Positions 2,862 to 45,058 of a DNA stretch of 64,000 nucleotides are shown in pieces. The stretch is from Desulfitibacter sp. BRH_c19 (lineage in GTDB: Bacteria > Bacillota > DSM-16504 > Desulfitibacterales > Desulfitibacteraceae): positions 186,001 to 250,000 of the forward strand of contig LOER01000046.1 in NCBI GenBank assembly GCA_001515945.1. Reading direction: 5' to 3'. Numbering within the stretch: position 1 is the first letter of the stretch; every line of letters begins with the position of its first letter. The notes beneath the pieces were generated by a model. That model ran no database searches. It saw nothing but the letters and a program-made list of their open reading frames with translations, and was not told the DNA's origin. The position numbers were made by a program, and so were the translations under genes.

Positions 2862-3710
2862 CTATTTTCTGCCAATACTCAGGGACATATTTGGACATTT
2901 CTCTACACACACAAAGCAATTGGTGCAATTTTGTATTTTTTCTAACTTTGGTTCAGCGTTCCATTGGCAATTTCTTTGGCAAATATTGCAGCTGTTTAGG
3001 CAAGTATTTTCATCTCTCTTAAGCCTAAACAAGCTCTTCTTAGCAAAAGCTGAAAGCAATGCACTAGTGGGACATAAATAATTGCACCATAACCCTCTCT
3101 GCCATATGCCATCAAGCAAAATTATCAGTAAAAAAAACATTATGCCCTGCCAGAAAACTATTGCAATGGATAAATATTGTAAAGCTCTACCTAGTACAGC
3201 GTAGGGCAAAATATAATTAAAAATAGGAAATCCTAAAAAGGTAACAGCTATACCAGACAATAAAATTACATAACGGAGATTGGAATTTGTAATAAGTTGA
3301 GGTTTATCTTTTTTAAACCCAATTATATCTGCCAACCAATTAGTAGCTTCTCTGATAGTATTAACAGGGCAAAGCCAACTACAAAATACCCTGCCAAATA
3401 ATAAGGCCAATAAAATTGGTAAAGAAACAGCAAAGAAAAAACTTAGATTCAAAGGATGATAATCCAATATCACCTGTAAGGCAGCTAAAGGATCTAAAAA
3501 GGTGTAACCACCAAAGGTGATTGCCCAATAAAAACCACTAAAGCCTTCCGCTAAATTCAAGAAATTATATCCAAGCTTAGATAAACCCTCTGTATAATCT
3601 ATAAGGGTTTGGATAACCTGTCTTTTATAAATTGCTATTAAAGGTGTCATGAAAATAAAAAGCAGAGCACCGATTTGGGTGATTCTCCGATAAGTTAATG
3701 GCTTCACCAT
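2862..3710 (-). CDS. NapH-like polytopic membrane iron-sulfur protein
   Basis: 282 residues with about five hydrophobic membrane segments and the twin CxxxCP motifs of the NapH/CcoG/RdhC-adjacent family (CSWLCPV near residue 112, WCNYLCPTS near 212), then a C-terminal ferredoxin part with CLNSCNICQRNC and CTNCFVCVEKCP. In nitrate and nitrous oxide respiration such proteins oxidise menaquinol and pass electrons to a partner ferredoxin of the NapG type. Here the partner gene lies 19 bp upstream, and both lie just downstream of rdhB. I infer a quinol-to-dehalogenase electron route parallel to NapGH. It lacks the FMN-binding domain expected of RdhC/NosR, so it is not a plain RdhC. Confidence 0.85.
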   Translation of the reverse strand: MVKPLTYRRITQIGALLFIFMTPLIAIYKRQVIQTLIDYTEGLSKLGYNFLNLAEGFSGFYWAITFGGYTFLDPLAALQVILDYHPLNLSFFFAVSLPILLALLFGRVFCSWLCPVNTIREATNWLADIIGFKKDKPQLITNSNLRYVILLSGIAVTFLGFPIFNYILPYAVLGRALQYLSIAIVFWQGIMFFLLIILLDGIWQRGLWCNYLCPTSALLSAFAKKSLFRLKRDENTCLNSCNICQRNCQWNAEPKLEKIQNCTNCFVCVEKCPNMSLSIGRK

Positions 3711-3729
3711 TAATCCCCCATTTAGTATA

Positions 3730-4338
3730 TCAGATTGTTTTATTAAACTTATTTACATCAATTGGCATACTGATTGCTCTAGGTGGACAAACGGGAACAC
3801 ATAAGCCACAGCCATAACACTGAACTTTATCTATAATCGGTCTGCCTTTGCCATCCTTTTTAATAGCTTGACCTTTGATTGGACAGATATCGTAGCACAA
3901 CAAACATTTCAGATTATCTCTTTTATAAAGAATACACTGCTCTCTTTTTAGTTGAGCTACACCTAGGTTTATTTGGTTTGATCTAGGATCAATTTCTCCA
4001 TAGCTACCAAAGCTTAAAGTCGTAATTACTGGAGTAAGTGCCTCAGTTGGACAAATATTTATACAACTCATACATAAGGTACATTTATCTGGCTTAGCTA
4101 GTATTGGAGTATGAGCTAAGTTCCCTTTGGCGGCAAAATTAAATTCTATCGCTTTGGTCGGACAATCTTGACCACACTGCATACAACGGATGCATCTCTT
4201 GATAAAATCCTCTTCTGGCAATGCTCCAGGTGGTCTTAAAGGCAAAGTATCTTCCACAGTAAAAGGTAAAGGTGAAATTAAATAAAAACCTCCAAAAACA
4301 CCCAGATATTCAAGAAATCTTCTGCGAGAAACCTTCAT
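3730..4338 (-). CDS. NapG-like TAT-exported ferredoxin with four [4Fe-4S] clusters
   Basis: 202 residues. The N-terminus (VSRRRFLEYLG) is a twin-arginine signal followed by a hydrophobic stretch, so the folded protein is exported with its clusters. Four ferredoxin motifs are visible: CIRCMQCGQDCP, CTLCMSCINICP, CLLCYDICP (with an upstream Cys) and CYGCGLCVPVCP. This matches the MauM/NapG family. It is followed by the napH-like gene and preceded, after a short palindrome, by rdhB. Its likely role is to carry electrons outside the membrane from the NapH-like protein towards RdhA or the tetraheme cytochrome. That link is inferred from gene order only. Confidence 0.88.
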   Translation of the reverse strand: MKVSRRRFLEYLGVFGGFYLISPLPFTVEDTLPLRPPGALPEEDFIKRCIRCMQCGQDCPTKAIEFNFAAKGNLAHTPILAKPDKCTLCMSCINICPTEALTPVITTLSFGSYGEIDPRSNQINLGVAQLKREQCILYKRDNLKCLLCYDICPIKGQAIKKDGKGRPIIDKVQCYGCGLCVPVCPPRAISMPIDVNKFNKTI

Positions 4339-4817: not shown

Positions 4818-6212
4818 TCAGATTTTTCTTCCTCCACGACGGGTATCAATACCCATTTCAGCTAAATTCTCATTCTTCCACCAGCCCTCAGGATCCTTCA
4901 TAGGCTTCCCAGATTGAGCAGGAAATGCCTTATGGTCTCCAGCTACAAGTAATGAGTTAAAGACTGATGTTGAAGCAATTGTTCCTTTAACTATTCTGTG
5001 TAAGCTAGCATCATCATCAACAGCATAAGGACATGAAGAGAAGCAAATGCCACAGTTTGTGCCACAATCAGCTTGGAACTCACGGCATTTTACTGAATCT
5101 TCATAATAAGCCCTGTGACCTCCAGGGTTATTCCAAGGACCTCTGCCTTCCCAACTGGGGTCACGGTCTAAACTCAAGGCCTTTGATGGACACATCTCTG
5201 CACAAGTCATACAATCCTTACAAAAATCCATGACTCCAAAATTAATTGGTTTAGTTGGAGCTAAAGGTAGATCAGTAGTCAAAGCAGTTAATCTAACCAT
5301 AGGACCATATTCAGGGGTAATTACTCGGTTTAAACGTGACAATTCACCTAATCCAGCCATTACTCCAAAAGCTGGAGCAATACCAAAGCCATTACTGGTT
5401 GTAGGTCCATAGGAATTATAACCAAGCCCGTAAATAAACTCATGGATCTGAGTTAAAATAGTCCACAAACGAGTGTATGATAAAGTAGTTGTTTGAGAGC
5501 CTAAAACTGTTGGACCATATTTCATCGTTTCATTAGACATTTGTACAGTATATACAATCGTATATCTGGCCTTATCTGGAATAACTAATTTCTTTTCATC
5601 TTCATAGCCTACATCAACATTCTCAAATAAAATAGGTTTTTTCACAGATTTAGGTTCTTCTGCATAAACAAGCTTTCTTGTAGTTTCAGGTTCAAGCTCT
5701 ACAAAACCTACTGTTGCAGCTCCCATGTGCCTTAAAGCAATTCTAATCATGCGAGCATTCTCTTCAGGAGTACCTTCATATCTTGGTGTACCCCGTTCTT
5801 GAGGGGTTTTCGCTGATCTAGGTCCCATAAAATAGAATGGAGGCCTTCCAGCACCAACAGCATCCTTTAAAGCAAAATCCTTCGTAGTATAACCAGGAAC
5901 ATTTTCTAGCTCCCATTTTAACATATTGTCTTTTTTCAGTTGATCAAGCCTTTTAGTCTCTTCTGCACTACGATACTCATTAATACTACCTCTAACAGTT
6001 TTCCATTCTTCAAAACGTTTAAGATTTTTCCAGTCTATTTCTGTGGTTGGTTTGTCAACAGTTTTTACCCACCAGTAGCGATTAGGTACTTCCTTAGGCA
6101 ACGCATCTCCAGCAGCTAAAGCATGCTTGTCGAAACCGGTAGCAGCCAAAGTTATTCCTGCCCCTGTAAGACCCGCAGCTTTAATTAACTGCCTTCTACT
6201 TAATTCAGGCAT
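4818..6212 (-). CDS. rdhA: Respiratory reductive dehalogenase catalytic subunit
   Basis: 464 residues, standard length for respiratory RdhA. Twin-arginine signal at residues 5-25 (SRRQLIKAAG). Central corrinoid-binding/catalytic region with the conserved EFIYGLGYNSYGP segment around 258-270. First [4Fe-4S] motif C331-x2-C334-x2-C337-x3-C341; second site C376-x10-C387-x2-C390-x3-C394. Start ATG at 6212 has a strong GGAGGAAG site. The enzyme reduces organohalides at the outer face of the membrane with cobalamin and two clusters. The motif TMKYGPTVLGSQTT resembles ortho-chlorophenol-type CprA proteins as I remember them, but substrate cannot be assigned from sequence. Cluster partners are rdhB and the NapGH-like genes. 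Confidence 0.95.
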   Translation of the reverse strand: MPELSRRQLIKAAGLTGAGITLAATGFDKHALAAGDALPKEVPNRYWWVKTVDKPTTEIDWKNLKRFEEWKTVRGSINEYRSAEETKRLDQLKKDNMLKWELENVPGYTTKDFALKDAVGAGRPPFYFMGPRSAKTPQERGTPRYEGTPEENARMIRIALRHMGAATVGFVELEPETTRKLVYAEEPKSVKKPILFENVDVGYEDEKKLVIPDKARYTIVYTVQMSNETMKYGPTVLGSQTTTLSYTRLWTILTQIHEFIYGLGYNSYGPTTSNGFGIAPAFGVMAGLGELSRLNRVITPEYGPMVRLTALTTDLPLAPTKPINFGVMDFCKDCMTCAEMCPSKALSLDRDPSWEGRGPWNNPGGHRAYYEDSVKCREFQADCGTNCGICFSSCPYAVDDDASLHRIVKGTIASTSVFNSLLVAGDHKAFPAQSGKPMKDPEGWWKNENLAEMGIDTRRGGRKI

Positions 6213-30712: not shown

Positions 30713-31363
30713 TTAAAAGCATTGCTCTGGCGGTAGTGGAGGGCAAACGCCAGGTAAGGTAACACATGGTGCAGGTACGCAAAAGCCAAAGCTAGGAACT
30801 AACAGCTGTACAGTTAAGATAGACTTAACTACTAGACATACCTGAATGTCACAGGAAATTGAGTATTCTAGAACCTCATCATCTTCTTCTACATCAGTAA
30901 CAACACAATTGCAAGCTAATAATACACTTTCAGTACAGTCTATACTTACACCCTCAGGGGCACATAATGTAACTGTTTTACTGAATGTAAAAATTCTTTC
31001 TATTTCATTATCTTCACCATTTTCTGCTTCTGGGTTAATAAGGGTGACTGGGACATTTACTGAAAGCACTATTGTGAAAAATCCATCCCCTACTGATGTA
31101 CGGCTGATTTCATTACAGGTAATATCAGACCCCTCAGTTAACGCACATTCTACAGGATCTCCCTGCTCAAGACCTGTTCCAAACTCATCCGAATCAGTTG
31201 ATACTTCTCTTGTTCTATCATCGATTTGGAAGCAACTATCATAAACCTTATCTACCACAATACACTCAATTCTATCAAAGGGTGGGCACACAGGCAAACC
31301 TGTGTCAGGATCAATGGGACACTGTCCCGGTTGAATTTGATTTTGTTTTACTTTTTTTGACAT
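30713..31363 (-). CDS. Cys-rich spore-surface-like hypothetical protein
   Basis: 216 residues, no signal or membrane helix. Pro/Cys-rich ends: N-terminus PGQCPIDPDTGLPVCPPFDRIECIVVDKVYDSCFQ, C-terminus FCVPAPCVTLPGVCPPLPPEQCF, with a beta-rich middle containing CAPEG, CTESVLLACNC and CDIQVCLV. About 14 cysteines in total. The central part recalls a DUF3794-like beta sandwich found in spore coat proteins of Clostridia. I infer a disulfide-linked spore surface protein. It has its own terminator, and lies divergent from an unknown beta-rich protein gene. Confidence 0.65.
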   Translation of the reverse strand: MSKKVKQNQIQPGQCPIDPDTGLPVCPPFDRIECIVVDKVYDSCFQIDDRTREVSTDSDEFGTGLEQGDPVECALTEGSDITCNEISRTSVGDGFFTIVLSVNVPVTLINPEAENGEDNEIERIFTFSKTVTLCAPEGVSIDCTESVLLACNCVVTDVEEDDEVLEYSISCDIQVCLVVKSILTVQLLVPSFGFCVPAPCVTLPGVCPPLPPEQCF

Positions 31364-31543: not shown

Positions 31544-32509
31544 ATGGTGATGATTATGACAGTATTTATAAACCCAAAATCTGGGGATACCTGGAATTTT
31601 TCATTTAAGCACAGTACCCTAAACTTTACTTTCTGCTTTAACGGAAAGCAGCATAATAATGTTCTTGATTATCGTGTAGCATACAACGGAACAAATATGC
31701 CTTTAATTGTTACTAAATACAATCACTATCAGCTTAACGTATACCAATGGCAAATAAATCACTGGATATTGAAAAAGTTTCAATTTAAAGAATATATTAC
31801 TGGCTTTTTTGTTTCCAAGATTGATAATAATCAATCCCATTTGCTAATAGAAACTGCATATGGTCATAATAAAGAAGCTTTTCATTTCTTTAATGTAGAT
31901 AACAATTGGTATAGAAAGTCTCTTCCAATACCAAACTGTAAAATATTTGATCTAACCTTTCTTTCAGAGAAACATCTACTCTTCTTAACCGTTTTTTGCA
32001 AAAAAAACAGAGTATTATTAACCTATAGTTGGAATGGCGATACTCAGGAGTGGGAAGAAGCAGGTTTCAGTTTTGATATCCCTACTGGAACCATACTTGC
32101 TCTTGGATATACAAGAAGCTTAGTACATCTGGTAACACTTGTAAAAGACCATTACTACAAGCTCAATTACACAGAACTCAATAGGAATACTAATAGTTCT
32201 AGAGAGTCTAATATTATAATGCTTCCAGCCTTCTTCCCTAAAAAATGTTATTTAATTCAAGACAATAACATAATGGCGATATTTTCTACAAATTTGATAA
32301 ATGGACATTTCTTTTATTTGAAGGACGGTTCAAGGTGGATAGAGTCTTCTATTAGCCAAATATCTTCTTATAAAAATATTGCTGGTGTTTATAATACTAC
32401 AGGTTACATTTCTTCAAGTCTGGCCTTTAATGAACTCTTTAACATAGAATTGAAATCTCCCATAACATTAAAAGCATCAAACATAATTAAGCTATCACAA
32501 AAGAGATAA
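31544..32509 (+). CDS. Beta-rich hypothetical protein
   Basis: 321 residues of repeated Trp/Tyr/Phe-containing beta strands (YQWQINHWILKKFQF, YSWNGDTQEWEEAGFSF, YLKDGSRWIESS). Regular spacing of WxxxxxxW strands suggests a beta-propeller-like fold. No signal peptide. Start could be the first ATG (31544) or one at 31556. Spore genes on either side hint at a spore function, but no family was recognised. Confidence 0.6.
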   Translation: MVMIMTVFINPKSGDTWNFSFKHSTLNFTFCFNGKQHNNVLDYRVAYNGTNMPLIVTKYNHYQLNVYQWQINHWILKKFQFKEYITGFFVSKIDNNQSHLLIETAYGHNKEAFHFFNVDNNWYRKSLPIPNCKIFDLTFLSEKHLLFLTVFCKKNRVLLTYSWNGDTQEWEEAGFSFDIPTGTILALGYTRSLVHLVTLVKDHYYKLNYTELNRNTNSSRESNIIMLPAFFPKKCYLIQDNNIMAIFSTNLINGHFFYLKDGSRWIESSISQISSYKNIAGVYNTTGYISSSLAFNELFNIELKSPITLKASNIIKLSQKR

Positions 32510-32526
32510 TTAGAGATTATATCTTT

Positions 32527-32556
32527 GAAAACCATACAGGTTTTTAACATTTTTTT
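32527..32556 (+). terminator. Weak terminator after the beta-rich gene
   Basis: AAAACC/GGTTTT stem with a 5-base loop, then a T-rich stretch with TTTTTTT. Short stem, so uncertain. Confidence 0.4.
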
Positions 32557-32852
32557 CAGAATCTATTTATATATCTATATCCCATGACAGACAGCTTATA
32601 TACTATATATTCCAAACTAGTCTCAAATTGATTATATGTTACAGAAAGCTTTTTCTGTTGATAAGGTCCAAAACTTTCCACTCCTTTAATAGTTCTAAGA
32701 GCGTTAGTAACTCCTTCATAATCAGTTAAAGTATTCATGTTCGCAATTGTCATATTAATTGTTATAAATGCATTATGAATACTTGAATGCTGCTGATTTT
32801 TTTCTTCCATTATCTCAGCTAACTTTCCAAGTCTATTTTCATACCAGCTCAT
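32556..32852 (-). CDS. Small HMA-like protein lacking CxxC, member 3 of a trio
   Basis: 98 residues from the ATG at 32852 with GAGGTGG upstream (a longer frame starts at 32888). After a helical start, INMTIANMNTLTDYEGVTNALRTIKGVESFGPYQQKKLSVTYNQF...YIVYKLSVMGYRY follows the beta-alpha-beta-beta-alpha-beta order of heavy-metal-associated (HMA) domains, with GMxCxxC replaced by NMNTLTD. No cysteine is left. The first of three adjacent related genes in low-to-high order (the last in transcription). Function unknown; a protein-interaction or dimer fold rather than metal binding is likely. Confidence 0.6.
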   Translation of the reverse strand: MSWYENRLGKLAEIMEEKNQQHSSIHNAFITINMTIANMNTLTDYEGVTNALRTIKGVESFGPYQQKKLSVTYNQFETSLEYIVYKLSVMGYRYINRF

Positions 32853-32926
32853 TTTGAGCACCACCTCATTTATTAATTTAGAAATCAATTAACCAGGCAC
32901 CCTGCCTGTTATTTTTTGTTAGTGCA

Positions 32927-33214
32927 TCATCCACCCTTGACTTTTATTGCCGGTTTATTATTGTAATTTTGTAGTTTGTAGCCTAGCTTAAGAATCAAGT
33001 AGCCAATAACGCTACCATCTATGATATTCGGGTAGTATTTAACAGAGATTATTTTCTTATTGGTATATATTTCTACATCCTTAATTCCCTCATGTTTTGT
33101 TAATTCTCGTTTAATAACTTGCCCATCATATAATGTATTCATATTTCCGATACGCAGTCTAATTTCTGCTGTTGTATAAGACTTAAAATCCTGTACCTTT
33201 TTATACATGGACAT
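32927..33214 (-). CDS. Small HMA-like protein lacking CxxC, member 2
   Basis: 95 residues, ATG with GGGGG seven bases upstream. AEIRLRIGNMNTLYDGQVIKRELTKHEGIKDVEIYTNKKIISVKYYP...IGYLILKLGYKL is the clearest HMA-like pattern of the trio: beta1-NMN-alpha1 (metal loop changed to NMNTLYD), GIKDVEI beta2, ISVKYYP beta3 and a final LGYKL. No Cys. Shares IGNMNTL with member 3, so they are paralogues. Function unknown. Confidence 0.65.
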   Translation of the reverse strand: MSMYKKVQDFKSYTTAEIRLRIGNMNTLYDGQVIKRELTKHEGIKDVEIYTNKKIISVKYYPNIIDGSVIGYLILKLGYKLQNYNNKPAIKVKGG

Positions 33215-33259
33215 AATAGTACCCCCTTGATTTAATAAGCAACTGCTTATGTTTTACTT

Positions 33260-33532
33260 TCAGCCACCTTCTCTTTTAAATTCTATACCTTTTAGCTGAA
33301 ACTTATAGTCCATATAGGTTGGTGTAATTAGATACTCATAGTAGGTTATAATTACTTTTTCACTTGCTGGCACAACCTCTATTCTTAAGGTATTTAAGCC
33401 AATGCATTCATAAATTTTTTGTTTAATATGGTCATCAGATGCTCCATTTATGATATAACACACTTGTCTTGCATTTTCATGATTTAGCTTTTCGTTCCTA
33501 GCATCAATGTAGATTCTTTGCTTTGGCTTCAA
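33260..33532 (-). CDS. Small HMA-like protein, member 1 (first gene of trio)
   Basis: 90 residues from a TTG at 33532 (GGGGTG seven bases upstream). RIYIDARNEKLNHENARQVCYIINGASDDHIKQKIYECIGLNTLRIEVVPASEKVIITYYEYLI...FQLKGIEF has the same beta-alpha-beta-beta-alpha-beta outline, with GLNTLRIEVVPASEKVIITYY like HMA beta2-beta3. Two cysteines remain but not as CxxC. More divergent than its neighbours. The three genes are on one strand with 45- to 70-bp gaps, probably one operon. Confidence 0.55.
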   Translation of the reverse strand: MKPKQRIYIDARNEKLNHENARQVCYIINGASDDHIKQKIYECIGLNTLRIEVVPASEKVIITYYEYLITPTYMDYKFQLKGIEFKREGG

Positions 33533-33802
33533 GTCATCTCACCCCTCTTATTCTTAATTTCTGATAGAACCCAGCATTATTAACTTGCTATTCCAGTATA
33601 TTAACTTCACTTAATAAAGGTTACACTCTGGTAAATTAAGACATGCCCCTAAATAATTGCAATTTTGGGAGACTTAGTCTTTAATATAAAGATAACCATA
33701 ACATTCTATCTAGATATAGCGAGTTAAGCATTTTGTATGTCCCAATATATTAGATATAATATCAATATATATAAACATAATAAATTATCAGGAGGTAATA
33801 CC

Positions 33803-34513
33803 ATGAACAGTTTACTTAAAAAAGCATTTTCTTTTCTTGTTATCACAGTTTTGCTAATGCAAATACCAACAATGGCTTATGCATCATGGGGATTGCAAAG
33901 AATACTTGATCAGCAAAATCAAGCTACAACATCTGCACCTGTTACTACACAGCCGCCTAAAGATACTCAGGTTACAACTCCAGCCCCTTCAAGCAACCAA
34001 TCTACTGCAGATTATATTCGCAATCTGCGTAGAAATCCAACAACCCAGCAAAACAATGCTAATCCTACTCCTAGTAACCCATCCCCATCTAATCCTAGGC
34101 CTGAAACACCTCCGAGCAACCAGCAGGGAGCAATGACGAGTTCAGAAAGCATGATGCTTAATTTAATTAACAAAGAAAGATCTGAAAAGGGCTTAAAACC
34201 ATTACAATGGCATTCTGGACTTGCTGGTTTGGCTAGATTAAAAAGTCAGGACATGGTGGACAATAATTATTTTGCACATAACTCGCCAACCTACGGTTCT
34301 TTTTATCACATGGTAAGCAATGCAGGTATCTCTTATCGACAAGTAGGAGAAAATCTAGCAAAGGCTAGAGACGTAAGTAAGGCCCATGTACTTCTAATGG
34401 CTAGTGAAGGCCATAGAAATAATATTTTAAGTTCACATTTTACCCATATAGGAGTTGGAATTTTATCTGACAGATATGGTATCGTTGCAACTCAATTATT
34501 TATTGCTCAATAA
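33803..34513 (+). CDS. Secreted CAP-domain (YkwD-like) protein
   Basis: 236 residues from the ATG at 33803 (AGGAGG upstream; the longer frame from 33737 has no site). Signal peptide (LLKKAFSFLVITVLLMQIPTMAYASW), then a Pro/Thr/Gln/Ser-rich linker (about 35-110), then a CAP/SCP domain: NLINKERSEKGLKPLQWH, DMVDNNYFAHNSP, VGENLAKARD, SEGHRNNILSSHFTHIGVG. Catalytic-like His and Glu residues are kept. Related to spore-coat-associated YkwD/SafA-neighbour proteins. Secreted or coat-located; activity unknown. Confidence 0.9.
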   Translation: MNSLLKKAFSFLVITVLLMQIPTMAYASWGLQRILDQQNQATTSAPVTTQPPKDTQVTTPAPSSNQSTADYIRNLRRNPTTQQNNANPTPSNPSPSNPRPETPPSNQQGAMTSSESMMLNLINKERSEKGLKPLQWHSGLAGLARLKSQDMVDNNYFAHNSPTYGSFYHMVSNAGISYRQVGENLAKARDVSKAHVLLMASEGHRNNILSSHFTHIGVGILSDRYGIVATQLFIAQ

Positions 34514-34789: not shown

Positions 34790-36112
34790 ATGGGTAATGT
34801 TATATGGAATAATAAAGAAATTCTGGAGTTTGAAAGTAATTACAAAGAATTCTTGATAGCTTCATGCAACTCAAAAAATATCAACTATATTTTAGATACT
34901 GACAATGTAGTTATATTCCCTGCATTATATGATAAAACCATAATACTTAAAATGCTGAGTGAACATGAGGAATTAAAGGAAACTATTAAAACTATAGAAA
35001 ATTCACTTACAAGTGAAGGAGCTACAGTTTTAATTGATGGTGGAGAAACTGATAAACAATCTCTGGGGTACCTGGATGCACAAATTTTATTATCTTTTTC
35101 CTTTTCGAAAAATAATCCCAATCTAACTATTTATTTGCCTTTTAGTGACCAGGAAATTAGCCTATCTCTCATAAAAAAACTCCTAAGACATTTAAATCTT
35201 TTAGACAGAAATATAACCTACAAGGTAGCAAGCTTTTGGGGCAAAATTACTGCAACTAAATATTGGAACTATTTATATGGTAATCCAACCCCAACAATGG
35301 TTTTTGAACTAGGAATTCCTAGTCTACCTGATAAATTTCTAAGTAACTTTGGAGACAGTCTGTTAAAAAGCCTTGTCGAAGAGTTTAGTTATAAACCTAA
35401 CAACGAAGAAATAGAGAGTGTTGTTAAATACTTTAATGATGTAACTCAAAGGTTATCTGCTGACACATCTTTATCTAAAGAACAGCATCAGTTAAATGAA
35501 CTTCTAGCTAAACTAGAACTACAAGAAGCTGAATTAGATGCATTAAAAAGATCTTATATAGAAACAGAAGAAATAATAAAAGAAATAAATACAGAAAAAA
35601 ATCAAGAAAAAGTTGAACTTAATGAGAAAATGCTAATTGTAGACAATCAAACACAGGAAGAACAAAAACCTAACAAAAAAAATAATCTTGGAACTAATAA
35701 AAACAGAAAAACTCGCAAAAAGAAGGAGACAAAAGCCAAAAAGCTATACATGCCTATAAGTAAAAAAGAGCAGTCAAATCTTTACAAGTATAATCATTTG
35801 CCTTATCCGGTGAGGATCCCTGAAGGGGGTCCAGTATATGAATTTATGAGACCTAATCGTGAGACTAAAAGCATAGATTTACCTACTTCCTTAACACCAA
35901 AAAACATGTGGGGGTCTCAAAAAATTTCTAGTAAAAATTATAATTATCAGGTGCCTATCAGCACCTTCCGTTTACCGGGAAATAATACAAACGTGGGTAA
36001 TACACATTCTAAGGATATGGAGCAGAAGAAAGAAATTGAAGATATTAGCTCTCAAGAAATAATAGAAAGCATGAAGGATATCAATACTGCCCAAGAAACT
36101 AATGAAAAATAG
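34790..36112 (+). CDS. Unrecognised coiled-coil protein
   Basis: 440 residues. The N-terminal 210 or so residues form an alpha/beta part (TVLIDGGETDKQSLGYLDAQILLSFSFS ... TMVFELGIPSLPDKFLSNFGDSLLKSLVEEF) that faintly recalls an N-acetylmuramoyl-L-alanine amidase (Amidase_3) layout but lacks clear zinc ligands. Then a coiled coil (about 230-270, LNELLAKLELQEAELDALKRS), a Lys-rich basic stretch (KKNNLGTNKNRKTRKKKETKAKK) and a low-complexity tail with YNHLPYPVRIPEGGPVYEFMRP. Strong terminator follows. It lies between spore genes, so coat or cortex role is possible. Confidence 0.55.
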   Translation: MGNVIWNNKEILEFESNYKEFLIASCNSKNINYILDTDNVVIFPALYDKTIILKMLSEHEELKETIKTIENSLTSEGATVLIDGGETDKQSLGYLDAQILLSFSFSKNNPNLTIYLPFSDQEISLSLIKKLLRHLNLLDRNITYKVASFWGKITATKYWNYLYGNPTPTMVFELGIPSLPDKFLSNFGDSLLKSLVEEFSYKPNNEEIESVVKYFNDVTQRLSADTSLSKEQHQLNELLAKLELQEAELDALKRSYIETEEIIKEINTEKNQEKVELNEKMLIVDNQTQEEQKPNKKNNLGTNKNRKTRKKKETKAKKLYMPISKKEQSNLYKYNHLPYPVRIPEGGPVYEFMRPNRETKSIDLPTSLTPKNMWGSQKISSKNYNYQVPISTFRLPGNNTNVGNTHSKDMEQKKEIEDISSQEIIESMKDINTAQETNEK

Positions 36113-36361: not shown

Positions 36362-37687
36362 TTGGAAGTTTTCGTCCAAGGATCACACAAAAAACAGCTT
36401 TTCTTAAACAATTCTCAGTTAGAGATGTTCAATCTCACCCCAGGTCAAGAACTAATCTTACAACTTGGAGTTATAGACTCCTTAGTAGAAGTAGCAATAC
36501 AAAATAGTCAGCGTTCAACTGATACTCTTTATATGACAGAAACGCTACTTGCTGACTTTTATTATTACCAAGGTGAACCTTTAAAGCTGATTTATAGTTC
36601 AAATAGCAAACTGATTTTAGGCCCTAGTTTAGGTTTGACTTTAACGCCTCATTCATGGAGTAATATTGACAAAAGTACTGCGATAAAAAAAAGAGCTCTT
36701 CTGGCCTTAGAAAAAGGTGTTCTCTTTTATTGCTTTCGCCTTAAGAACGTGGACTGGAAAAACAATTTAGTGGAAGCATACTGTTTAAATCCTAATAACT
36801 ATAACTGGGTTAAGAAAAATGTTCCTGTTCCTCATGTTATCTATGACAGGGGTTCACATCCCGGGCCAAAAACAGTAGAAAGTTACAATAACCAAGGAAA
36901 GGTTAATAACATTCAATGGATTAATACTACACGTACCTTTGGTAAGTGGGAAACTTTTCAAGCCTTTAGGTCTTTTAAAGACACTAGTAAATCCCACCCC
37001 GAAACAGCCTTCTTTACTTTACCAAACTTGAAAGAATTCTTGAAAAAATATATGTACACTTTTATTAAGGATACTTATGGCAGGGGTGGTAAAAAAGTTT
37101 TTAGGATAGAAAAAGTAAAAAAATATTATCTATGTAAGGCAGGAGGAAATCAAATTAGAAGCTGGAAATTTGCCAATATAGAGACTCTTTATTCTTTTTT
37201 GTGTAATACTCTTGGAAAGAATCTTATTATTCAGCAGGGAATTTTTTTGGCTGAGATAGATGGAGGTCCCTTTGATATGCGTGTTTTAGTTCAAAAAGAC
37301 ATCAATAGCGAATGGATTATCTCCGCCGTGAACTTCCGGATTGCTAAACCAGGAGCTATCGTGACTAACTTCGCTGCTGGCGCTAGAGACGTCTTTCTTA
37401 CACCTGGGGAGGATTTACTTCATCCTGGCCTTTCTTGGGAAGTACTATCAAATCTTTCATCAAAGGCAGTTTACGCCTTGGAAAATTCCTTTGGAAGCTT
37501 AGGAGAAATAGGCTTGGATATAGGGTTAGATAAAGAAGGAAAACTATGGATTATTGAGGCTAACAGCCGGCCTAGTAGCATCGCATACAGAACAGCCACC
37601 AAAGAAAAAAGTAATCAAATATTCGGCTTGCCAATAGACTACGCTACATCCCTAGTGAAACACCTGTATAATAATTCACACAATTAA
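36362..37687 (+). CDS. YheC/YheD-type ATP-grasp spore protein (long form)
   Basis: At least 441 residues. N-terminal beta domain (about 1-110: FVQGSHKKQLFLNN ... SKLILGPSLGLTL), then an ATP-grasp domain with VPVPHVIYDRG, KDTYGRGGKKVFRI, and IGLDIGLDKEGKLWIIEANSRP for Mg/ATP binding. Matches YheC/YheD of the Bacillus endospore coat. The frame stays open upstream to an ATA at 36314 six bases after GGAGGG (INNFYKIQNPKQGLFTL), but the first ordinary start is the TTG at 36362, with AAGGA nine bases before. Forms an operon with the next YheC/D gene (17-bp gap). Confidence 0.85.
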   Translation: MEVFVQGSHKKQLFLNNSQLEMFNLTPGQELILQLGVIDSLVEVAIQNSQRSTDTLYMTETLLADFYYYQGEPLKLIYSSNSKLILGPSLGLTLTPHSWSNIDKSTAIKKRALLALEKGVLFYCFRLKNVDWKNNLVEAYCLNPNNYNWVKKNVPVPHVIYDRGSHPGPKTVESYNNQGKVNNIQWINTTRTFGKWETFQAFRSFKDTSKSHPETAFFTLPNLKEFLKKYMYTFIKDTYGRGGKKVFRIEKVKKYYLCKAGGNQIRSWKFANIETLYSFLCNTLGKNLIIQQGIFLAEIDGGPFDMRVLVQKDINSEWIISAVNFRIAKPGAIVTNFAAGARDVFLTPGEDLLHPGLSWEVLSNLSSKAVYALENSFGSLGEIGLDIGLDKEGKLWIIEANSRPSSIAYRTATKEKSNQIFGLPIDYATSLVKHLYNNSHN

Positions 37688-37704: not shown

Positions 37705-38802
37705 ATGTTAAGAAATAAACCTGTCGTAGGAGTAGTTGTTAACAAAACTTCTATAAATAAGCTTTTAAAGCAAGAACAAGTATCACAAATTAAAGATTTA
37801 ATAAAAGCTAACAAACATGCAAATACAACTTTATTTTTTTTTACCATTAAGAATGTTGATATTGTAAAGAAACGGATAATAGGCACTTATTATAATGATA
37901 AAAAAGGTCTCTGGGAGAAAAAACAGTTTCCTTACCCAGATTTCATTTACAGAAAAAGCAGTAATTTAAGAACTCAAAAAAAATTAGCAGCTACCTTTGA
38001 GAAACAGCTCCGAAAAGAAAATATTCAATCATTGAACTACATATATGGATTTAATAAATGGAAGGTTTATAACAGTTTATCTAAAGATAAGGATTTTCTT
38101 CAGTATTTACCATTAACACTTATGTATAAGAGACCAAATGACTTAAAGAAACTTTTTGCAATAAGCAATAAAGTTTATCTAAAAGCTTGTCGAGGTGGAA
38201 AAGGCAGGCAAGTTGTTTGTGTAAGCAAATTGCCTAATGGAAAATATGAATTCAGTTGTTTTATTGAAAAATTGTATGTCGAAAAAATAGATGATTTCAA
38301 TAAGCTTATTAAAAAAATTCTAGGATTTTTTGGCTCAAAAAAATTTGTGGTTCAACAAGCAATTGATCTTATAACAATCGGCAAAAGTATTGTGGATCTC
38401 CGTGCAGAAGTACAAAGAAATGGTAGTGGAGAAATAACAGTAACAGCCATTCCTGTTCGTGTTGGTCGTTACAATTCACCCATCACCACACATGCTAAGA
38501 GCTATACCTTTGATTACTTTTTTGAAGAAATTATGAAATACTCTCAAGAGGAAATTGAAAGTCTAAAAACTAAGGTAAATAACTTCCTAATTACTGCCTA
38601 CAGGTCCATAGAAAGAATTTATGGGCCAAGTGGTGATATAGGAATAGACATTGGTCTGGATAAAGAAGGTCGCTTATGGTTTATTGAATGCAACGCTCGC
38701 TCTTTAAAAGTGTCACTTAATAACGCATATGACAAAGAGACAATCAATCAATCATATTTAAACATACTAGAATATGCTAAGTATTTGTATTCCTTACGCT
38801 AA
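37705..38802 (+). CDS. YheC/YheD-type ATP-grasp protein
   Basis: 365 residues, ATG with AGGAGG. Lacks the N-terminal beta domain of its neighbour. VGVVVNKTSINKLL start, then ATP-grasp with KVYLKACRGGKGRQVVCV (P-loop-like lysine region), VQQAIDLITIGKSIVDLRAEVQRN and IGIDIGLDKEGRLWFIECNAR (metal ligands E/N). About half identical by eye to the product at 43946-45058. Convergent with the hemerythrin gene, overlapping it by 9 bp. The family is associated with spore coats; substrate ligated is unknown. Confidence 0.88.
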   Translation: MLRNKPVVGVVVNKTSINKLLKQEQVSQIKDLIKANKHANTTLFFFTIKNVDIVKKRIIGTYYNDKKGLWEKKQFPYPDFIYRKSSNLRTQKKLAATFEKQLRKENIQSLNYIYGFNKWKVYNSLSKDKDFLQYLPLTLMYKRPNDLKKLFAISNKVYLKACRGGKGRQVVCVSKLPNGKYEFSCFIEKLYVEKIDDFNKLIKKILGFFGSKKFVVQQAIDLITIGKSIVDLRAEVQRNGSGEITVTAIPVRVGRYNSPITTHAKSYTFDYFFEEIMKYSQEEIESLKTKVNNFLITAYRSIERIYGPSGDIGIDIGLDKEGRLWFIECNARSLKVSLNNAYDKETINQSYLNILEYAKYLYSLR

Positions 38803-43945: not shown

Positions 43946-45058
43946 ATGAATAATAATAATAGTTTGCCACAAGCTTACGCAAGACCTATTTTAGGTATCC
44001 TTATTAAGGATACCCATGCCAATAAGTTACTTAAAAAACAAGAACCACCCTTAAAATATCTAGAAGTAATAAAGGCAAATGAACAAGCGAAAATAACTAT
44101 CTACTTTTTTTCAAGTGGAAACTTAGATGAAAATGTAATAAATGGAATTATCTTTAACAAAAACTCAGGCAACTGGGAGATTCAACAATTTCCTTATCCT
44201 GATGTAATTTATAAATTATATGGCACAAAAAAGGAGGAAGGATTAGATAGGAAGCTTGCGAAACAGTTAAAAAAACGAAAAATTAAAACTCTAAATTACT
44301 TGTTTACCTTTAATAAATGGGACGTTTTGAAGCACTTGTCAAGACATGAAAATTTAGCACCCCATTTACCACATACTATTTATTATAATACATCAGATGA
44401 TTTAAAAAATATGCTAAATCTTTTTCCAAAAGTCTACTTAAAGCACTGTCAAAGTGGTCTCGGTAGAGGAGTAATCTGTATCTCCAAGTTACCCGAAGGC
44501 AGCTATGAATTTAGGTATTATATTAACAAGCTATATGTTCTAATAGTCAATGATTTCACTCGCTTAATTCGTGAAGTTCATAAATTTTATAGTAATAAAG
44601 AGTTTATAATCCAAGAAGCAATTGATTTAATCAAAATAGATAATAGCATAGTAGATATGAGAGCTGAATTACAAAAGAACGGTAATGGAGATATTATTAT
44701 ATCTGCACTTCCCGTTCGTATTAGTAATAGTAATGCACCAATAACAACCCACGCTAATTGCATGAAATTTGAGTCTTTTTTTAAAGGGTATATGAACTAT
44801 TCAGATGAAGAAATTTTCAAATTGAAAATTCGAATAACCCATTTATTAAATATTATTTATAAATGTATAGAGGATTGTTACGGATCTAGCGGAGAATTAT
44901 CCATTGATCTTGGCTTAGATAAAAGAGGGCATCTATGGTTTATTGAAAACAATTGTATATCAAGTAAAGTATCCTTTTATAAAGCATATGATAAAAATTC
45001 TATACATAATTCATACCTAAATTTATTGGAATATGCAAAATTCTTATATAAAACATAA
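43946..45058 (+). CDS. YheC/YheD-type ATP-grasp protein, third copy
   Basis: 370 residues. Close paralogue of the product at 37705-38802: PILGILIKDTHANKLL start, FNKWDVLKHLSRHENLAPHLP, KVYLKHCQSGLGRGVICISKLP, VQEAIDLIKIDNSIVDMRAELQKNG, IDLGLDKRGHLWFIENN. The C-terminal ExN metal pair is E-NN, and the usual following arginine is changed to CIS. It is the only gene in its transcription unit. Its upstream region shares motifs with the sugar cluster promoter. Confidence 0.87.
   Translation: MNNNNSLPQAYARPILGILIKDTHANKLLKKQEPPLKYLEVIKANEQAKITIYFFSSGNLDENVINGIIFNKNSGNWEIQQFPYPDVIYKLYGTKKEEGLDRKLAKQLKKRKIKTLNYLFTFNKWDVLKHLSRHENLAPHLPHTIYYNTSDDLKNMLNLFPKVYLKHCQSGLGRGVICISKLPEGSYEFRYYINKLYVLIVNDFTRLIREVHKFYSNKEFIIQEAIDLIKIDNSIVDMRAELQKNGNGDIIISALPVRISNSNAPITTHANCMKFESFFKGYMNYSDEEIFKLKIRITHLLNIIYKCIEDCYGSSGELSIDLGLDKRGHLWFIENNCISSKVSFYKAYDKNSIHNSYLNLLEYAKFLYKT

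Follow-up and report, generated by a model that had tools for sequence, protein, structure and literature searches.

The locus described here raises the question of why Desulfitibacter sp. BRH_c19 should carry, in a row and near spore genes, three small genes whose products resemble HMA domains and lack the cysteines with which such domains grip metal. The genes are located in a 64,000-nucleotide stretch of contig LOER01000046.1, the whole of which was analyzed and is referred to below as the window. An earlier note on this DNA had described three adjacent small genes and proposed that they represent a cysteine-free HMA family, and three consecutive minus-strand ORFs were indeed found there:

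32556–32852, minus strand: P1, a 98-residue cysteine-free HMA-fold protein with an MSWY N-terminus and an NMNTLTD loop
32927–33214, minus strand: P2, a 95-residue cysteine-free HMA-like paralogue of P1, with weak, sub-cut-off matches to HMA_2 and HMA
33260–33532, minus strand: P3, a 90-residue diverged HMA-fold protein with the motifs IDAR and ITPTYMDY

The order in the direction of transcription is P3, P2, P1, with intergenic gaps of 45 and 74 bases, and P3 would be the leading gene of the putative P3-P2-P1 operon. The start of P1 was assigned to the ATG at 32852 (MSWYE...), which is preceded by a GAGGTGG ribosome-binding site, and an upstream TTG was set aside in its favor. All three proteins are small, and no signal peptide or membrane segment was visible in their sequences. 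Elsewhere in the window, inspection of the translations by eye revealed a Tat-signal, two-ferredoxin-cluster protein resembling a reductive dehalogenase (4818–6212, together with 2862–4338), with NapH-like and ferredoxin-type genes downstream of it on the same strand.

The relationship of these proteins to HMA domains was supported by both sequence profiles and predicted structures. The P1 profile matched P2 at 7.6e-12 in a profile search, identifying the two as paralogues, and a joint P1/P2 profile (18 sequences) matched the HMA domains of copper ATPases and chaperones in the PDB with E-values of 1e-18 to 1e-10 (for example 1p6t, E=1.4e-18, and 1opz, E=9.6e-10). The sequence of P3 is too diverged to have produced a credible match in the PDB or Pfam; profile-profile comparison of P1/P2 with P3 gave a probability of 87.9% (E=3.2e-6). 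AlphaFold models were made of P1 (pLDDT 78.9, with the core near 90 and the first 30 residues about 60) and P3 (pLDDT 81.7), and the fold of P2 was assigned through its homology to P1. The two models had an identical order of strands and helices, the beta-alpha-beta-beta-alpha-beta arrangement of the HMA type, and their top Foldseek matches were HMA domains, of the MerP and CopZ type for P1 and the ATP7 type for P3, with target TM-scores against small HMA targets mostly of 0.7–0.88. The resemblance of all three proteins to HMA domains exceeds chance. Structure prediction and HMM searches, two of the checks suggested in the earlier note, returned ferredoxin-like, HMA-type models and profile matches to HMA domains, and one outcome it had named as contrary to its proposal, structures that are not ferredoxin-like, did not arise.

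No family in Pfam or NCBIfam names P1, P2 or P3 as such. In the Pfam scans, for which the cut-offs are 24.8 bits for HMA (PF00403) and 30 bits for HMA_2 (PF19991), the window's P2 scored 22.3 bits against HMA_2 (E=1.4e-4, its best Pfam match) and 15.1 bits against HMA, both below cut-off. P1 of the window had no match to HMA, and neither P1 nor P3 matched HMA_2; several Moorella-type relatives of P1 exceeded the HMA cut-off (35.4, 27.4, 25.8 and 24.9 bits). Membership in HMA_2 was rejected based on the P2 score and the lack of a PGRxR-type loop in P1–P3, and membership in the CopZ, CsoZ or MerP chaperones of NCBIfam was rejected based on missed equivalog cut-offs and the absence of CxxC, the best scores being 18.5 against 180 for the window's P1 (MerTP) and 30.2 against 77 for a Moorella relative (CsoZ). 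The open-access papers searched contained no description of HMA proteins in spores. The family can be called undescribed in the sense that it is unnamed in Pfam, NCBIfam and those papers, but HMA domains that lack the cysteines were already known, from HMA_2.

The place normally held by the metal-binding motif GMxCxxC is occupied in two of the proteins by a similar loop:

32721–32741, minus strand: NMNTLTD loop of P1
33125–33145, minus strand: NMNTLYD loop of P2

Alignment of NMNTL.D with GMxCxxC showed that G is replaced by N, M is kept, the first Cys is replaced by T and the second by D. The earlier note had assigned this loop and the HMA landmarks to the trio in general, with two of the proteins clearly sharing the loop. 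The loop holds for P1 and P2, but P3 is without it and has two lone cysteines (C25 and C43) that do not form CxxC; the landmarks GIKDVEI and ISVKYYP occur in P2 only, and LGY is found in P2 with MGY in P1. The claim of an HMA family lacking the metal-binding CxxC fared better, as the motif was present in none of the 56 proteins searched (32 of P1/P2 type from 23 loci and 24 of P3), and relatives retaining it, which would have spoken against the claim, were not found among them. In the 32 P1/P2-type proteins the equivalent of GMxCxxC is mostly [N/D]-[M/L]-x-[S/T/N]-x-x-D, with S, T or N at the first Cys position in 31 and D at the second in 30, the exceptions being one Y and two G. In a few relatives the conserved D is directly followed by a Cys (MKTDEDC).

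In the P1 model a helix spans residues 42–52, beginning directly after T41. With the helix beginning at this point, T41 and D44 would occupy the N-cap and N3 positions of a classical capping box, and the model indicates that the change from CxxC to [S/T/N]xxD in P1 likely created a helix N-capping box. The family is a clean example of a metal-binding fold that has lost its metal site family-wide, with a helix cap as the likely replacement. In a tree of 61 rows and 105 columns, P3 formed one clade and P2 its own clade (96/90) within the lineage of the window; many forks were poorly supported, and both a single loss and multiple losses of the cysteines would be compatible with this tree.

P3 has a patchy distribution, being present in 19 of 399 genomes of a phylum-wide sample. 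Its carriers include two Alkaliphilus species, Moorella stamsii, M. mulderi, M. sulfitireducens and M. thermoacetica, a Peptococcaceae MAG and other clostridial MAGs. A P1-type gene adjoins P3 in 23 of 24 loci, and P2 occurs only in the genus of the window, in Alkaliphilus and in a single related MAG; one further family has other extra copies. P2 is thus a lineage-specific duplicate and the trio a local form; based on the neighborhood counts over the 24 loci, what is conserved as a unit is the P3-P1 pair with the coat cluster described below. The search for the trio in other Clostridia, as had been suggested, consequently found a family conserved across several clostridial families, but as a pair. 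In one related family, an extra, more diverged P1-like gene without CxxC was observed away from the pair (L032:11110-11403, L064:5808-6131 and L066:13454-13786).

The neighbors of the three genes in the window, and the frequency with which they recur, are as follows:

30713–31363, minus strand: BMQ_0737-like spore coat protein, cysteine-rich (16 Cys in 216 residues), linked partner
31544–32509, plus strand: 321-residue unnamed partner, linked in 19 of 24 loci and carrying conserved Asp/Trp motifs
33803–34513, plus strand: YkwD-type CAP protein, a partner linked in 12 of 24 loci, apparently with a signal peptide
34790–36112, plus strand: 440-residue unnamed partner, linked in 21 of 24 loci
36362–37687, 37705–38802 and 43946–45058: three YheC/D-type ATP-grasp genes (an endospore-associated family), downstream of the cluster

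The location near spore genes was borne out by the YheC/D genes in the window and by the BMQ_0737-like coat gene, which is close to P3 in 22 of the 24 loci. In B. megaterium, BMQ_0737 belongs to the outermost layer of the spore (PMC4656864); the likeness of the window's protein to that family is distant (34.5 bits, where the cut-off is 71, with relatives at 31.5–35.7). Eight relatives are 57–86% identical to it, and all 16 cysteines are invariant in the nine aligned sequences. The 321- and 440-residue proteins had no match above cut-off in sequence searches of Pfam, NCBIfam and the PDB, and these two families are probably undescribed spore proteins. Gene order and orientation in the cluster differ between lineages across the 24 loci, and since the partners have been shuffled in this way, it is the linkage itself that appears to be kept. 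In both Alkaliphilus genomes and in locus L030, the pair or trio directly precedes the coat gene and shares its strand. SpoIVA was present in 18 of the 19 P3-carrying genomes; this co-occurrence adds little because SpoIVA is common (336 of 399 genomes in the whole phylum sample). The gene that comes after P1 in Moorella-type genomes, in the same orientation, encodes a D-aminopeptidase (M55) (L031:7850-8665 and L061:10676-11503).

The region upstream of P3 contains a candidate promoter:

33593–33622, minus strand: sigma-K-like promoter candidate AACC-N16-AATATACT, weak, with similar boxes in the same genus

Sigma-K-like boxes were present upstream of P3 in 14 of 24 cases compared with 1.3 in shuffles, using a loose pattern that was picked after looking. 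The signal had a z of 6.7 in 18 dereplicated sequences versus 4.1 for a reversed-motif control, a high background, and the clearest box was the Moorella-type GCATAGAATATA; the window itself fits the sigma-K motif poorly. Promoter models for sigma-E, F, G and A gave z values of no more than 2.8, below that of sigma-K. The sigma-K-like signal is only suggestive, and late expression of the P3-P1 genes in the mother cell is likely as judged from sequence. A further element in this intergenic region, GGGGCATGTCTTAATTTACC (minus strand, 33630–33649), has copies in the corresponding region of genomes G001 and G002, and a less exact one in G003; it is a possible regulatory site.

Since P1–P3 have no metal-gripping cysteines and are encoded inside a conserved spore-coat cluster, their role is probably to form part of the spore surface or help assemble it, and not to carry metal. 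The reading we somewhat favor is that the HMA fold has taken on a new use, without metal, as a module for protein interaction late in the assembly of the coat or exosporium. P3, P2 and P1 would be small HMA-fold proteins of the cytosol that no longer bind metal, in which the [S/T/N]xxD helix cap may hold the fold in shape without a metal. They would most likely be made late, in the mother cell, where P3 and P1 probably pair and P2 would serve as an extra copy in some lineages. As interaction modules, they may help the cysteine-rich BMQ_0737-like protein and its neighbors to assemble on the spore surface, whether coat or exosporium. The scaffold or nucleation module suggested in the earlier note is a role that we infer from genomic context. 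A bolder version, in which the metal-free family, with an obligate P3-P1 pair, would be a dedicated platform on which a cysteine-rich shell of clostridial spores is positioned or nucleated, is at present tentative and, in our estimate, doubtful. If it were true, the loss of the cysteines would also keep the platform out of the disulfide network of the shell.

The main rival to a structural role is that P1–P3 are cytosolic adaptors or inhibitors of a late-sporulation enzyme, such as YabG, a cross-linking enzyme or YheC/D. Ferredoxin-like domains frequently serve as adaptors, and the small size of P1–P3 and the lack of visible export or membrane signals would suit such a function, as would the closeness of YheC/D in the window and of a YabG protease gene to the pair in locus L032. 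However, YheC/D and YabG are inconstant neighbors, and the constant partners are the cysteine-rich coat protein and the two unnamed families. We regard an enzyme adaptor as a rather unlikely explanation.

Less likely still is that the proteins handle metal through other ligands (Asp, Thr, Asn, Met or scattered Cys) and deliver it to a spore enzyme or the coat. The HMA ancestry of P1 and P2 evident from the PDB profile matches is in keeping with this, as are the few relatives with a Cys after the conserved D, and delivery to a coat enzyme has a precedent in B. subtilis, in which Csp3 supplies copper to CotA (PMC9484137). In the same study, however, Cu-loaded CopZ failed to activate CotA, and a capping box of S/T/N and D is poor for Cu(I). 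Together with the uniform lack of CxxC and the finding that the cluster has no conserved metal enzyme or transporter across the 24 loci, these points leave metal handling very improbable. Equally hard to credit is that P1–P3 are ordinary conserved clostridial proteins located beside spore genes incidentally, which the patchy distribution might suggest, but against which stands their linkage to the same families across several families of Clostridia despite altered order and orientation.

The findings are of broader relevance: outside the well-studied genera, few of the components of clostridial spore coats have been catalogued. P3, P1 and the two unnamed partners represent a conserved, testable and undescribed set beside a cysteine-rich coat protein, and this set is present also in Moorella, whose spores are said to surpass in heat resistance those of every other known food-spoilage microorganism (PMC8745062). 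The main text of that M. thermoacetica spore proteome study reports only orthologues of known spore proteins.

Comparison with known systems helps to place the family. P1–P3 share the fold, the landmark spacing and the final G-Y with the HMA domains of PF00403 (CopZ, MerP, CopA and the ATP7 domains), and differ from them in having no CxxC, with S/T/N and D in its place in the P1/P2-type proteins, in the additional N-terminal MSWY segment of P1, and in being linked to spore-coat genes rather than to copper ATPases or CsoR. HMA_2, the best Pfam match of P2, is likewise of HMA type without CxxC, but its members in related genomes have the PGRxR-type loop. A parallel in possible mode of action, rather than a family relation, is provided by HIPP43 and Pik-1, plant HMA domains to which fungal effectors bind and in which the HMA fold is a protein-interaction surface; the biology is unrelated, and the plant HMA structures 8r7a, 8r7d and 6r8k were among the Foldseek matches. 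Lastly, the linked coat protein, with its invariant cysteines and distant likeness to BMQ_0737, resembles the cysteine-rich shells of spores (CsxA, ExsY/CotY and the BMQ_0737 outer layer), of which CsxA is known to self-assemble into a spore shell (PMC7333573). P1–P3 are not themselves shell proteins of this type, and any link to such a structure would be through its assembly.
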